A DNA stretch of 64,000 bases. Source: Rhodopseudomonas palustris. GTDB taxonomy: Bacteria; Pseudomonadota; Alphaproteobacteria; Rhizobiales; Xanthobacteraceae. Made by a program: the position numbers and the translations under genes. Numbering within the stretch: position 1 is the first letter of the stretch; every line of letters begins with the position of its first letter. The stretch lies in contig NZ_CP041387.1 of the NCBI RefSeq assembly GCF_007005445.1, positions 682,001 through 746,000 of the forward strand, given 5' to 3'. This document shows positions 41,845 to 47,564 of the stretch, one piece after another. A model generated the notes under the pieces. That model had not been told where the DNA came from, did not search any database, and saw only the letters and a list, made by a program, of their open reading frames with translations.

Positions 41845-44160
41845 TCACAGCGGAACACGGGCGTAGAGCGTAGTGCCCTTGCCCGGCGCGGTTTCGAGCT
41901 CGAGCGAGCCGCCGACCAGCGACAGCCGCTCACGGATACCGAGCAGACCGAGCCGGTCCGCCGGCTGCCTGAGACCGGCGGTGGCGAAGCCCCGGCCGTC
42001 GTCTTCGACGATCATCGTCACCTGGTCGCCGCTGAGCCGCAGCACCACGCCGACATGGCGCGCCGCGGCGTGACGGACGACGTTGGTGAGCGCCTCCTGC
42101 AGCACGCGATACAGCGTGGTTTCGACCAGCGACGGCAGCCGGCGCGCGCCGAGCGTGATGTGCAGGTCGAAGGCGACATCGGACTTTTCGCTCCAGGATT
42201 CGAGAAGGTTCTGGATCGCGGTCTGAAGGCCGAGGTCGTCGAGCGCGCTCGGGCGGATCTCCCAGGCGAGCCGGCTGGTCTGGCGGCCGAGATCGGCGGT
42301 CAGGCTCCTCATCTCGGCGATGCGCTGCTGCAGTTCCGGCAGGTCGCCCGCGGCCTGGCCGAGCTTGTCGAAGCCGAGTTGCAGCAAGGTCAGCGATTGC
42401 CCAAGCGTGTCGTGCAGCTCGCGTGCGATCCGCAGCCGCTCGGCCTCCTGATCCTCGACGGTTCGGCGCAGCACCTGGGACAGGTCGGCCTCGACCAGGA
42501 CGCGCCGCTCCTTTTCTTCCCGCAACGTCTGCGCGACGTCCTTCGAGCGCATCAGGCCGATCTCGACCTGACGCATCAACTGCTCGTGCAGAAGCTGAGC
42601 CGACTTGCGCTCGCGGGCGATGCCGTCGATCCGGCGCAGCACGACGTCGAGCAGGGATTCGCGCAGCCGGCGCGCCGCCTCGACCTCGGCCTCGCTCCAA
42701 GGATCGCTGTGCAGCCGCACCGAGTCCGGCCTCGCGGCGCCGCCCTTGGAGGCCGTGCGGCCGCCGTTGCTGTCGACGCTCACCGGCTTGTTCGGAATCC
42801 CGGCCCAGGTGATGCGGCGGACCACCTCGGGACGAAACCACAGCACGTAATCGCGCGGCGTGTCCGACAGCGACAGCGCGATCAGCCCACAGGCTTGCGC
42901 GGCGATGGCCTTGGCCGGCGGATAGGCGAGCGGGAGCGCGTCGGTATGGTAGACGCCATCGTGGGGCACGCCGTGCAGCCATCCCATCAGCGCGGCGACC
43001 TGGCCGGCGTCCGGTGTGACGCCGACCCCGGTGAACTGGCCGTCGATCCACAGCCCGACGCCGGCGGCCGGGATGAAATCGAGCAAATTGGGATAGAACC
43101 GGATCAGTCCCTCGGCGAGGTCGGACTCCTGGCTCATCCGCGTCACCAGCTCCTCGTGGACGCGGCCGCTGCGCAGCCGCGCGGCGAGCCGCTCCGCCGA
43201 GAGCCGAGTCTCGAGCTGCGACGAGGCCATCTCGGCGAACAGCGTGCAGGCCTCGCGCATCCGGTAAGGCAGGAATCGCGGGGTCCGGTGATGGCAGACC
43301 ATCAGCCCCCACGGCTCGCCGTCCACCACCAGCGACAGCGACAGCGAGGCTGCGACCCCGAGCTGGGCCAGATACAGCCGGTGTTCGGGCGAGGCGCTTC
43401 GGATCGCACTGTGCGACAGATCGAGCGCGGCGCCGCTCCCCGGATTGATCCCCGGCAGCACCGGCGCTGCGATTGCCTGGGCATCGGGCTGGACGCGAAT
43501 TCGGCTGAACGGCTCCGACTGCTTCGGAATGTCTGGCTGCGGATCGCGCAGCCCGAGCAGGGAGCCGACGTCAGGCGCCCGCGCCTCGGCGATCACGTCT
43601 CCGCTGCCGTCTGCCGCGAAGCGGTACACCATCACCCGATCGAAGCCGGTCACCCTGTGCAGCTCGGCCACCATCGCGTCGCAGAATTGCCCGACCGTGG
43701 AGGTTCGCTGCAGCTTCCGGATCATCGACTGCACCAGCGCCAGCGAATTGTCCGGTGCCGGCTCGCGGCGCGGATCGAGTTCGACCACCAGAAGCCCGGA
43801 CGCTTGATGCACGATTGCGTCGGTCGGCGTGGCGTCCGGGGCGTTGAGGGTGAAGGCGTGCAGCGGTCGTTCGATCAGCCGTTCGGACAGCGCCAATGCG
43901 CGCAGCCGGGCGATCTGATCGGACGAGAACACAGTGGCGGCCGCGGTGCCGGGCAACAGTTCCGCCGCGGCGCCGACCAGCGACTCGGTGGCGCCGCCGG
44001 CATGGACGATGACGAGATCGTCCTGGGCGAGTGCCAGCAAGGCGGCGTGCGGGTGGATCGAAGCCGCCGATACGCCCAGGGCACGCCTGCCGGCACCGAG
44101 ACGGGTAGCCGCACAGTCCGCGAGATCAAGCTCGGCAGAATTGTCAAGGCCGGACTGCAT
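41845..44160 (-). CDS. Phytochrome-like histidine kinase (RpBphP4 type) with degraded chromophore motifs
   Basis: 771 residues. Order: PAS (1-110), GAF (about 135-310), PHY (310-500), a HisKA_3 dimerisation domain with phosphoacceptor H583 in ELHDTLGQ, then an HATPase (DGRGF). A cysteine is at position 16, but the usual I-H-I-P-G-S-I-Q-P-H-G follows only as SAASIHPHA, with an insertion of about eight residues. GAF histidines near 259 and 290-291 (CHH) and a DIP remain. The PHY tongue PRxSF is replaced near residue 478 by RPDSV. This matches RpBphP4 forms that sense redox state instead of binding biliverdin; loss of photochemistry is inferred. Confidence 0.88.
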
Positions 44161-44181
44161 CACAATCTACTCAATTTTCCG

Positions 44182-44479: not shown

Positions 44480-44635
44480 ATGGCAGACGATCCCAACAAG
44501 GTCTGGCCGACCGGTCTGACGATCGCGGAATCGGAAGAGCTCCACAAGCATGTGATCGACGGCACGCGCATCTTCGGCGCGATCGCCATCGTCGCTCACT
44601 TCCTGGCGTACGTCTATACGCCCTGGCTGCACTAA
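44480..44635 (+). CDS. pucB: LH2 beta polypeptide
   Basis: 51 residues, start at 44480 with an ideal CAGGAGGA site. One membrane helix (about 28-48); histidine 40 in IVAHFLAY is the axial ligand for B850 bacteriochlorophyll. The N-terminal [16 protein letters not shown] segment is typical of LH2 beta chains. Pairs with PucA in ring-shaped antenna complexes of the intracytoplasmic membrane. pucA follows after 12 bases. Confidence 0.97.
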
Positions 44636-44647
44636 GGAGTCACTAAG

Positions 44648-44827
44648 ATGAATCAAGGTCGTATTTGGACTGTTGTGAAGCCGACCGTTGGTCTGCCGCT
44701 GCTGCTCGGCAGCGTCACCGTGATCGCGATCCTGGTGCACCTCGCTCTCCTGAGCAACACCACCTGGTTCCCGAAGTACTGGAACGGCAAGACCGCGGCG
44801 ATCGAGAGCTCGGTCTCCATCGGCTGA
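44648..44827 (+). CDS. pucA: LH2 alpha polypeptide
   Basis: 59 residues starting [10 protein letters not shown]. Membrane helix about residues 12-36; histidine 31 (ILVHLALL) ligates B850. Tyrosine 44 and tryptophan 45 (WFPKYW) are the residues that hydrogen-bond the B850 acetyl groups in high-light LH2, so this copy looks like a B800-850 type and not a low-light B820 variant. A short C-terminal tail lacks the Ala/Pro extension of other R. palustris copies. Confidence 0.97.
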
Positions 44828-45012: not shown

Positions 45013-46452
45013 ATGAACACAGTCAGCCAAAAGATGATGAAAGTCTGGGCCTCGCTCGGGCCCCGCTTTTTGCCCTTCGCGGATGCGGCCACGCCGGATC
45101 TGCCGTTGTCCCGGTTGCTGCGCCTGTCGTTGTTTCAGGTCGCGGTCGGTATGTCGCTGGTGCTGCTGGTCGGTACCCTGAACCGGGTGATGATCGTCGA
45201 ACTCAATGTGCCGGCGTCGATCGTCGGTATCATGGTTTCGCTGCCCCTGCTTTTCGCGCCGTTCCGTGCGCTGATCGGCTTCAAGTCCGACATTCATAAA
45301 TCCGCGCTGGGCTGGCGCCGCGTGCCGTTCCTGTACAAAGGCACCATGGTGCAATTCGGCGGTCTGGCGATCCTGCCGTTCGCACTCCTGGTGCTGTCCG
45401 GTGGCGGTGATTCCGGTCAGGCACCGGTCTGGGTCGGACAGGTTGCTGCCGCCGCGGCGTTTCTGCTGATCGGCGCCGGCGTGCACACCACGCAGACCGT
45501 CGGTCTCGCGCTCGCGACCGATCTGGCGCCGCCGGAGTCGCGGCCGAAGGTCGTCGGCCTGATGTACACCATGCTGATGTTCGGCATGATCGCCAGCGCG
45601 ATCATTTTCGGCATCCTGCTCGCCGACTTCTCCCCCGGGCGCCTGATTCAGGTCATCCAGGGCTCCGCGGTCGTCACCATCATCCTCAACGGTATCGCCT
45701 CCTGGAAGATGGAGGCGCGTCGTCGCGACAATCCTCATCAGGCCACGGCGCACCCCGATGCGCCGACCGGCGGCTTTCGCCAGTCGTGGGACGCATTCAT
45801 CCATGGTCCGAATGCGGTCCGCCGGCTGATCGCGGTCGGGCTCGGCACCATGGCGTTCAGCATGGAAGACGTGCTGCTCGAACCTTACGGTGGCGAGATT
45901 CTGAAGCTCAGCGTCGGCGACACCACCAAGCTGACGGCAGCATTGGCGGTCGGCGGCCTGCTCGGCTTCGGCTACGCCTCGCGCGTGCTGAGCCGCGGCG
46001 CAGATCCGTTCCGGATGGCTAGCTTCGGCACGCTGGTCGGAATTCCCGCTTTCCTCGCAGTGATCTTCTCCGCTGACCTGTCCTCGACGACGGCCTCGGC
46101 GGTGGTGTTCGGCTTCGGCACGCTGATGATCGGCTTCGGTGCCGGCCTGTTCGGCCACGGCACGCTGACGGCGACGATGAATGCGGCGCCGAAGGATCAG
46201 GTCGGCCTCGCGCTCGGCGCCTGGGGGGCCGTGCAGGCATCGGCCGCCGGTGTCGCGATCGCGTTGGGTGGTATTTTGCGCGACGTGGTAACCGCTTATG
46301 CGCCGCACGGTTGGGACGGGGCCACGGCGGGTTATCACTTTGTCTATTACCTCGAACTAGTGTTGCTCATTGCCACGCTGGTGACGATGTTCCCTCTGAC
46401 ACGGCGGCGGCGGGAGACGATTCTGATGCAGGGCCAGTTGAGCGGGTCCTGA
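45013..46452 (+). CDS. pucC: PucC-family transporter for LH2 assembly
   Basis: 479 residues, 12 predicted helices in a major-facilitator layout. PucC/LhaA hallmarks include LNRVMIVELNVPASIVG, FRALIGFKSDIHKSALGWRR near the first loop, and GLALGAWGAVQASAAGVA late. These proteins probably assist bacteriochlorophyll or polypeptide insertion into light-harvesting complexes. It lies 185 bases behind pucA and leads into the two repeat proteins. Confidence 0.9.
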   Translation: MNTVSQKMMKVWASLGPRFLPFADAATPDLPLSRLLRLSLFQVAVGMSLVLLVGTLNRVMIVELNVPASIVGIMVSLPLLFAPFRALIGFKSDIHKSALGWRRVPFLYKGTMVQFGGLAILPFALLVLSGGGDSGQAPVWVGQVAAAAAFLLIGAGVHTTQTVGLALATDLAPPESRPKVVGLMYTMLMFGMIASAIIFGILLADFSPGRLIQVIQGSAVVTIILNGIASWKMEARRRDNPHQATAHPDAPTGGFRQSWDAFIHGPNAVRRLIAVGLGTMAFSMEDVLLEPYGGEILKLSVGDTTKLTAALAVGGLLGFGYASRVLSRGADPFRMASFGTLVGIPAFLAVIFSADLSSTTASAVVFGFGTLMIGFGAGLFGHGTLTATMNAAPKDQVGLALGAWGAVQASAAGVAIALGGILRDVVTAYAPHGWDGATAGYHFVYYLELVLLIATLVTMFPLTRRRRETILMQGQLSGS

Positions 46453-46470
46453 GATTGAGACGGAGTAGCC

Positions 46471-47115
46471 ATGACGCAAATCATCACCCGCTTGTATGAT
46501 TCCAGCAGCCGGCTTTCGGCGCTGGAGAGCGATCTGAAGAGCAGCCATTTCACCTATGCGGTGGTCACGTCCGGCCGCTCCTCCGCCGACGAGATCGTCG
46601 CCGCCCTGGTCAAGGCCGGCGTGTCGCGCGCATCGGCGGTGACCTACGCCGATTTCGTCAGGAAGGGTGGGGTCGTCGTTGCCGCGGAAGCCGACTTCGG
46701 CTTCGGTACGAAACTGACCAGAATTCTCGACAGCTATGGGCCGAACCCGATCAGCCTGCAGTCGTCGTCGCGCGCTGCCGAACAGAGCGATGCCGCGCCG
46801 TTCTCGAACATGATCCACGCGCCGGTGCTGCTCGACACGTCCGGCCCGTACAAATCCTATTCCGGTGACTTGCTGCTGGTCGACAGCGACAAGACCTTCT
46901 CTGGTACGCCGCTGGTTATCAGCAGCGATGGCCCGTATCAGTCGTTCTCCGGAACACCGTTGTTGCTCGACAGCAGCGGCCCATACAAGTCCTTCTCAGG
47001 GACTCCTCTGTTGGTGGACACCAGCGGTCCGTACAAGTCGTACTCGGGCGAGCCGCTGTTGATCAACAACTCCACACCCTTCTCCTCCTGGCTGGGCCTG
47101 CCAGTGCTACTCTAA
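46471..47115 (+). CDS. Repeat protein with an N-terminal general-stress-type domain, linked to LH2
   Basis: 214 residues, starting 18 bases after pucC. Residues 1-95 resemble the YflT/GsiB-like heat-induced-stress fold (AGVSRASAVTYADFVRKGG, then TRILDSYGP). From about residue 115 the chain is built of roughly 16-residue units, each with a S-G-P-Y-K/Q-S-F/Y-S-G-T/E-P-L-L core. The related small repeat protein is encoded 15 bases downstream. No signal peptide or membrane helix is visible. Position makes a role in LH2 assembly or chromatophore structure likely, but nothing direct shows it. Confidence 0.62.
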   Translation: MTQIITRLYDSSSRLSALESDLKSSHFTYAVVTSGRSSADEIVAALVKAGVSRASAVTYADFVRKGGVVVAAEADFGFGTKLTRILDSYGPNPISLQSSSRAAEQSDAAPFSNMIHAPVLLDTSGPYKSYSGDLLLVDSDKTFSGTPLVISSDGPYQSFSGTPLLLDSSGPYKSFSGTPLLVDTSGPYKSYSGEPLLINNSTPFSSWLGLPVLL

Positions 47116-47130
47116 GTAAAGGAATCGACC

Positions 47131-47424
47131 ATGAGCGAAGAATACAAAGGACACTCTGGACATCCGCTGATCCTCAAGCAGGAAGGCGAGTACAAGAGCT
47201 ATTCGGGTGAGCCGCTGATCCTGAAGCAGGAAGGCGAGTACAAGAGCTACTCCGGTACGCCGCTGATCCTCGAGCAGAAGGGCGAGTATCAGAGCTTCTC
47301 CGGTACGCCGCTGATCCTGAAAGACGAGGGCGAGTATCGGGGCTTCTCCGGTATGCCGCTGATCCTGAAGCAGGAAGGCGAGTACAAGTCGTACTCCGGC
47401 TATCCGCTGCTGCTCAACATCTGA
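47131..47424 (+). CDS. Short protein of six 16-residue repeats
   Basis: 97 residues: a three-residue start and six units of E-Y-K-S-Y-S-G-x-P-L-I-L-K-Q-E-G form the entire sequence (units start at residues 4, 20, 36, 52, 68, 84). Tyrosine, serine, glycine and proline are fixed; the ends are charged. The unit is the same design as in the 214-residue protein just upstream, suggesting a recent or coordinated pair. Possible repetitive beta structure or self-assembling scaffold; a multi-core peptide precursor is a less likely alternative, since no modifying enzyme with a recognisable link is adjacent. Confidence 0.65.
   Translation: MSEEYKGHSGHPLILKQEGEYKSYSGEPLILKQEGEYKSYSGTPLILEQKGEYQSFSGTPLILKDEGEYRGFSGMPLILKQEGEYKSYSGYPLLLNI
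47140..47421 (+). repeat. 48-base tandem repeat encoding the six protein units
   Basis: Six copies of a 48-base unit read in frame, each encoding one 16-residue repeat. Units differ at several third positions as well as at the variable residues, so the array is not fresh. Copy number could differ between strains without breaking the frame. Confidence 0.8.
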
Positions 47425-47450
47425 GCCAGTCGGCCACACAGGTTCCATGA

Positions 47451-47476
47451 CGCCGCGGGCAGCAATGCCCGCGGCG
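47451..47476 (+). terminator. Hairpin ending the puc-repeat operon
   Basis: CGCCGCGGGC and GCCCGCGGCG form a perfect 10-pair stem with an AGCAAT loop, 27 bases past the repeat gene. No clear T-run, but strength and position fit a transcript end. Confidence 0.62.
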
Positions 47477-47564
47477 CCGTGCGTTTGAGTCGCAAGAAAT
47501 TGCTGGGCAAAGCCGCCCGCAGCCGTCATTCTGTTTCCAACGACACAAGAAAAGTCGAGGAAAC

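Follow-up and report, generated by a model that had tools for sequence, protein, structure and literature searches.

What do two small proteins made of the same tandem repeat do directly behind the genes of an LH2 antenna? The question is raised by a 64,000-nucleotide stretch of Rhodopseudomonas palustris DNA (the window), in which two genes, here called ORF1 and ORF2, follow pucBA and pucC. A first-pass annotation, made from the letters of the sequence, had proposed that the pair encode an uncharacterised antenna factor. The link to the antenna stands, and ORF1, which is puc-linked, is apparently an undescribed relative of the LH2 gamma polypeptide, but ORF2 is that gamma polypeptide, as far as a close match to solved chains can tell, and is already known.

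The features of the locus are collected in Table 1. Both reading frames lie on one strand behind pucBA–pucC, as first described, with 18 bases between pucC and ORF1 (46453–46470) and 15 between ORF1 and ORF2 (47116–47130). The repeat core Y-x-S-x-S-G-x-P-L is indeed common to the two, with tandem-repeat scores of 134 and 297 at a period of 48 nt, well above what chance would give, and ORF2 is nothing but six S-G-x-P-L repeats at a step of exactly 16 residues. The terminator said to be shared by the genes holds up in part. There is a stable hairpin in the region 47425–47500 (−34.6 kcal/mol, z −2.56, with 6 of 200 shuffles equally good), but a T-run is missing and the terminator scan gave no site there, so a terminator common to ORF1 and ORF2 is possible only. 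On the other side of the operon, a bphP-type kinase neighbour, 64–77% identical, recurs at loci L035, L037, L043 and L047–L050.

Table 1. Features of the pucBAC–ORF1–gamma locus in window coordinates; for ORF1 and ORF2 the first position is that of the ATG and the last that of the stop.
Feature	Position	Strand	Evidence
pucB (LH2 beta polypeptide)	44480..44635	+	PF00556, E 1.5e-10
pucA (LH2 alpha polypeptide; residues 44/45 are Y/W)	44648..44827	+	PF00556, E 3.7e-15
pucC (MFS-type LH2 assembly protein)	45013..46452	+	PF03209, E 1.4e-150
ORF1, 214 aa, member of the puc-linked family (YflT-like N-terminal domain and seven gamma-like units)	46471..47115	+	
ORF1 N-terminal domain, residues 1–91, predicted beta-alpha-beta-alpha-alpha-beta-alpha	46471..46743	+	AlphaFold2; remote YflT relation
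ORF1 ribbon: leading PFSNMIHAPVLL, five SG units, closing PFSSWLGLPVLL	46798..47112	+	Unit scan; match to 7zcu_S
ORF2, almost certainly the LH2 gamma polypeptide, 97 aa, six 16-residue repeats	47131..47424	+	Identity to 7zcu_S
GC-rich hairpin 3' of the gamma gene, without T-run	47451..47476	+	
Bacteriophytochrome-type histidine kinase (bphP), divergent neighbour of the operon	41845..44163	−	PHY (3.7e-52), GAF, HisKA_3

ORF2 aligns with PDB chain 7zcu_S over 97 of 97 residues, 91 of which (94%) are identical, and it matches the chain named PucA-LH2-gamma in PDB entries 7zcu, 7zdi, 7ze3 and 7ze8. The six differences from 7zcu_S leave every SG serine intact, at residues 9, 25, 41, 57, 73 and 89 (a step of 16). 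ORF2 is thus almost certainly LH2-gamma, and the earlier remark that no known LH2 gene has this design falls away. The word uncharacterised does not fit ORF2 either, as the available text of the published work describes the Rps. palustris gamma RPA1495, solved by cryo-EM, as a ribbon around six of the nine alpha-beta pairs (PMC9618040; PNAS 2022) and reports its identification by mass spectrometry in two studies (PMC9618040 and PMC9897067). According to the part of the first study available to us, the serine of each gamma repeat ligates one extra BChl, giving six BChls per chain, BLASTp returned gamma in Rhodopseudomonas only, and the reason for its partial coverage of the ring was called unclear (PMC9618040). 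The same text reports that heterologous Rps. palustris LH2 assembled without the gamma gene (PMC9618040), so the ribbons are not strictly needed for the ring. In the sequence of the solved gamma chain the other serine position is occupied by glycine in four of the six repeats, and the SG serine must therefore be the BChl ligand. By transfer from the Rps. palustris orthologue at this level of identity, ORF2 would form an extended ribbon on the cytoplasmic rim of the LH2 nonamer. Each 16-residue unit would span one alpha-beta pair, six pairs in all, and its SG serine would ligate one extra B800-type BChl.

The repetitive design had also led to the suggestion that the repeat proteins are multi-core RiPP precursors. 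That design is the one feature in its favour; four cryo-EM structures contain the orthologue of ORF2 as a complete modelled chain, for which reason this reading of ORF2 was rejected, and no maturase was found among the seven window proteins scanned. The suggestion finds no support, and we consider its probability negligible.

The tail of ORF1 matches the gamma chain 7zcu_S with E 6.9e-27. A unit scan finds seven units in it, at steps of 16, 13, 16, 16, 16 and 16 residues. The five SG units (serines 131, 144, 160, 176 and 192) are flanked by two degenerate end units, the closing one of which has leucine at the ligand-serine position, and the lag-16 autocorrelation of the tail stands at z = 13.0 against shuffles. 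With an N-terminal domain, five SG units and two degenerate ones, ORF1 departs from the stand-alone gamma design. AlphaFold2 models the N-terminal domain with confidence (mean pLDDT 83.9 over residues 1–93), but residues 92–214 have pLDDT below 50 and the ribbon is unplaced. Foldseek with the N-terminal domain alone listed 465 matches, none of which had an E-value of 0.001 or lower, and the full model likewise gave nothing at that level.

The first-pass annotation likened this extra domain to general stress proteins. The resemblance is to YflT-type domains, but it is remote, and Pfam gives no match at E up to 10 for the window ORF1 or its N-terminal part. Among 22 members of the ORF1 family, three match YflT (PF11181) at E up to 1, the best at E 0.014, below the curated cut-off. 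The next profile neighbours of the family are YflT- or YsnF-like proteins; of five such neighbours submitted to Pfam, two pass the YflT cut-off, one matches YflT below it, one has DUF2382, and one has DUF2382 with a weak YflT match. We conclude that the N-terminal domain is probably related, remotely, to YflT-type stress domains.

ORF1 is under purifying selection, with dN/dS of 0.21–0.55 against 14 relatives, silent sites being near saturation in several of these comparisons, and the pairwise pN of the N-terminal domain exceeds that of the tail in 14 of the 14 comparisons. This asymmetry bears on the view that ORF1 is a light- or redox-stress protein, in which the YflT-like domain does the work and the tail tethers it to LH2 membranes. 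Such a role would agree with the YflT- and YsnF-like neighbours retrieved by the family profile, but the supposed working domain is the part with the higher pN throughout, and few family members match YflT in Pfam; we regard this role as improbable. The two halves also differ in one close comparison. Over window positions 46794–47243 compared with locus L048, the repeat half of ORF1 is 97–99% identical to genome G010 and the N-terminal half 75–82%; pucC is about 85–94% identical in this comparison, and the silent-site difference is 0.056 versus 0.471. Recombination, gene conversion and codon constraint are alternative explanations for the similarity of the repeat half.

Homologues of ORF1 were found near pucBA at 35 loci outside Rhodopseudomonas, on the pucBA strand in 29 and on the opposite strand in 6. 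Some of the ORF1 genes occupy the gap that separates pucBA from pucC. At L136 and L137 the homologue stands between two pucBA pairs, followed by pucC. At L083, L085, L088 and L170 the alpha chains extend far beyond the usual 50–60 residues, being still open at 100 residues, and at 120 in L170. A profile of 15 ORF1 sequences matched 38 of 397 genomes of the order; when 19 of the 37 matches outside the own genome were examined in context, 17 had pucBA nearby and the remaining two (L097 and L149) were stress-type proteins. A broader profile matched 21 of 385 genomes of the class, and among the 15 of 20 non-own matches examined the ten best all lie near pucBA, while five are stress-type in appearance (three of these were scanned with Pfam). 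The broader profile also matched 21 of 349 genomes of the phylum, where six of the seven loci examined, from six genomes (own genome and G460 excluded), have pucBAC nearby; L175 of this sample is a second copy in a genome already holding a puc-linked ORF1. The matches left out of these examinations (18 in the order, 5 in the class and 13 in the phylum) are weaker and mostly cover the N-terminal domain only. Two further homologues, in G096 and G133, were found at puc loci examined for LHC genes.

Co-occurrence with pucBA in phototroph genomes, which the first-pass annotation had proposed as a check, is borne out. Genomes with four or more LHC matches were counted as having both LH1 and LH2; ORF1 is found by puc in 19 of the 23 such genomes in the order and in 10 of the 11 in the class. 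LHC counts per genome are lower bounds, because no more than 18 candidates were scored in each. Two genomes (G220 and G530) have ORF1 and puc yet only two LHC matches, again as lower bounds. At eight puc loci of five genomes (G066, G109, G175, G226 and G559) no ORF1 was found at E up to 1, and genome-wide profiles returned nothing in these five except the stress-type protein of G066. ORF1 is thus not always required, as these five LH2-type genomes lack it at the puc loci examined. The first four belong to one genus of family f31, and since the order-level profile missed the homologues of G096 and G133, the f31 genomes may still encode ORF1 elsewhere. Homologues of the full design that are common in non-phototrophs, which would speak against an antenna role, were not seen: all repeat-tail relatives examined are in LHC-bearing genomes. 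The examined relatives without nearby puc genes are stress-type proteins, plus extra copies in phototrophs. Nothing was matched on plasmids when these were searched with ORF1 and with two of its distant homologues. ORF1 is a member of a wider puc-linked, LH2-linked family.

The genome of the window itself holds two paralogues with no puc gene found nearby. One, of 175 aa (L146:5061–5585; G000:C1, about 4116060–4116584), has a shorter N-terminal domain, short repeats of the SSLASSQ type, a closing PFSSMLGLPVL and no SG array. The other (L147:5131–5637, minus strand; G000:C1, about 4178130–4178636) combines a proline-rich linker with one closing-type unit and a single SG unit.

The puc linkage, together with a likely membrane-seeking tail, could also suit a regulator or membrane-curvature factor that serves chromatophore shape and not LH2. 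The homology of the tail points to an LH2-binding chain, not to membrane shape, and we hold this role to be very unlikely.

The 16-residue step reaches beyond Rhodopseudomonas. At lag 16 the combined autocorrelation of 28 tails from outside the genus has z 19.9, and at lag 32 it has z 16.6, values inflated by counting related sequences as independent. In 24 of these tails lag 16 ranks within the top four, and in the other four (L098, L099, L137 and L140) it does not. A unit matrix, itself seeded from this family, puts 59 of 96 unit-to-unit steps at 16 residues exactly, the next most frequent being 25 (9) and 31–32 (9). The tails of family f74 have a period of 25–26, or 15 (L175), or none, with no clear signal at 16. 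Given these and the four tails off the step, one unit per alpha-beta pair is no rule for the whole ORF1 family. Among the f74 loci, L172, L174 and L175 have extended arrays in which repeats of 25 or 15 residues are built around MANWPIPLISRRKP or MAKFPFAHLVPGH, and L172 has two successive ORF1 genes behind pucC.

The array of SG units is absent from the 51 non-Rhodopseudomonas loci scanned. Of the 28 tails, 24 have no SG unit and four have a single one; a single TG occurs in three. Such a single SG (L088, L089, L090, L092) or TG (L044, L083, L085) is always in the second unit, at the ligand position, and is a possible forerunner of the BChl-ligand array. We read this as suggesting that the SG array and gamma arose in Rhodopseudomonas and the closely neighbouring G020, out of a family that may have possessed one such unit beforehand. 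Gamma is probably an offshoot of the ORF1 family, since the family tails lack the SG array yet mostly keep the step.

Evidence on expression comes from a paralogous locus. According to the available part of a published screen, rpa3011, a hypothetical gene bordering pucBAd, responds to low light with a rise of over twofold in at least 14 of the 17 strains, and the same holds for pucBAd (PMC6879726). It is the one published observation found that concerns a protein of the ORF1 kind. The gene order at L041 is a LuxR regulator, a pucBAd-like pair, an ORF1 paralogue and a pucBAc-like pair, and L042 also has an ORF1 paralogue at the place corresponding to rpa3011; identified by synteny alone, rpa3011 is very probably an ORF1 paralogue. 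In G004 both pucBA pairs are present without ORF1 between them.

Gamma itself varies in length. Its usual form in Rhodopseudomonas loci has six SG units. In G009 and G014 the six units follow mostly 13-residue steps and the first unit reads TSG, and a gamma of four units is encoded in the second operon of G012. Four genomes (G002, G005, G012 and G020) also encode a 145-aa gamma of nine units, eight of the SG kind and one closing; nine would match the LH2 nonamer. The alpha chain of the nine-unit operon has F44/M45 in G002 and G012 and Y/M in G020; in G005 a contig end cuts the operon. By alignment, F44/M45 is also found in the low-light PucD chain 7ze3, and since the pucBAc-like pairs are F/M as well, F/M marks low-light types in general.

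The homology of the ORF1 tail to a rim-binding ribbon, the common 16-residue step and the puc neighbourhood suggest that ORF1 docks on LH2, and these observations, with purifying selection, are the basis of the mechanism that we propose. The repeat tail would dock on the LH2 rim in the one-unit-per-pair register of gamma, the folded N-terminal domain would stay in the cytosol, and the protein would hold or space the growing LH2 ring during assembly. In Rhodopseudomonas, ORF1 might carry as many as five BChls, bound to its serines, until gamma or the mature packing occupies these sites. Docking, BChl load and a transient part in assembly and pigment loading are all deduced from sequence, and for the mechanism as a whole we estimate a little less than an even chance.

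It is possible instead that ORF1 is a stable, minor second gamma on some LH2 rings, its N-terminal domain contacting other proteins. The five intact SG units and the homology to the solved gamma chain agree with this, and the nine-unit gamma of four genomes shows that other ribbon lengths are in use. However, in the available text of two papers alpha, beta and gamma are the only proteins named in purified LH2, ORF1 not being among them (PMC9618040, PMC9897067), which is weak evidence because one of the studies cut gel bands of ≤10 kDa (whole complexes were also run). The scarcity of SG units outside Rhodopseudomonas also counts against a stable subunit, as binding several BChls cannot then be the common job of the family. 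An arrangement with ORF1 and gamma in register on one ring was rejected on unit count (7 + 6 > 9). Given this count and the purified complexes, we modestly favour the transient assembly role; a stable second subunit seems to us possible but doubtful.

These results lead us to a bolder speculation, to which we attach a rather low probability: the puc-linked repeat proteins may act as rulers of the ring. The number of units would set, or follow, how many alpha-beta pairs are gripped; the ligand serine, single in some relatives, would have spread to every unit in the Rhodopseudomonas gamma; and the nine-unit gamma would belt an entire low-light ring, which would answer why the usual gamma stops after six pairs. 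The nine-unit form offers a direct test of whether ribbon length decides the extent of the extra B800 pigment. Gamma has been reported as a Rhodopseudomonas speciality, and the ORF1 family lies near LH2 genes in many photosynthetic bacteria. If it is the parent family of gamma, rim-binding ribbons would be a common and overlooked part of LH2 in Alphaproteobacteria, and the gap in our understanding of ring assembly and pigment loading would become testable gene by gene.

No description of ORF1 was found in the open-licence papers searched. RPA1494, by its number presumably the ORF1 orthologue, is not mentioned there; RPA1495 and RPA3011 are.

Among known systems, the closest is LH2-gamma RPA1495, of which ORF2 is the orthologue by sequence, with all six SG serines kept at step 16. 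The tail of ORF1 is homologous to it, but ORF1 differs from gamma in its added N-terminal domain, in having five SG units where gamma has six, and in end units whose ligand serine is replaced. For the N-terminal domain the nearest profile neighbours are proteins of the YflT (PF11181) or YsnF kind, although the window ORF1 has no Pfam match to YflT. RPA3011 and the ORF1 paralogue of L041 occupy the same place beside pucBAd, and RPA3011 is induced by low light as pucBAd is. In Rhodobacter capsulatus, PucD and PucE (the 14-kDa LHII gamma polypeptide) are encoded behind pucBAC and matter for stable LH2. The ORF1 homologues of f74 genomes also lie behind pucBAC, which makes the R. capsulatus proteins, likened to them here by position alone, a lead for relating the ORF1 family to known LH2 factors.
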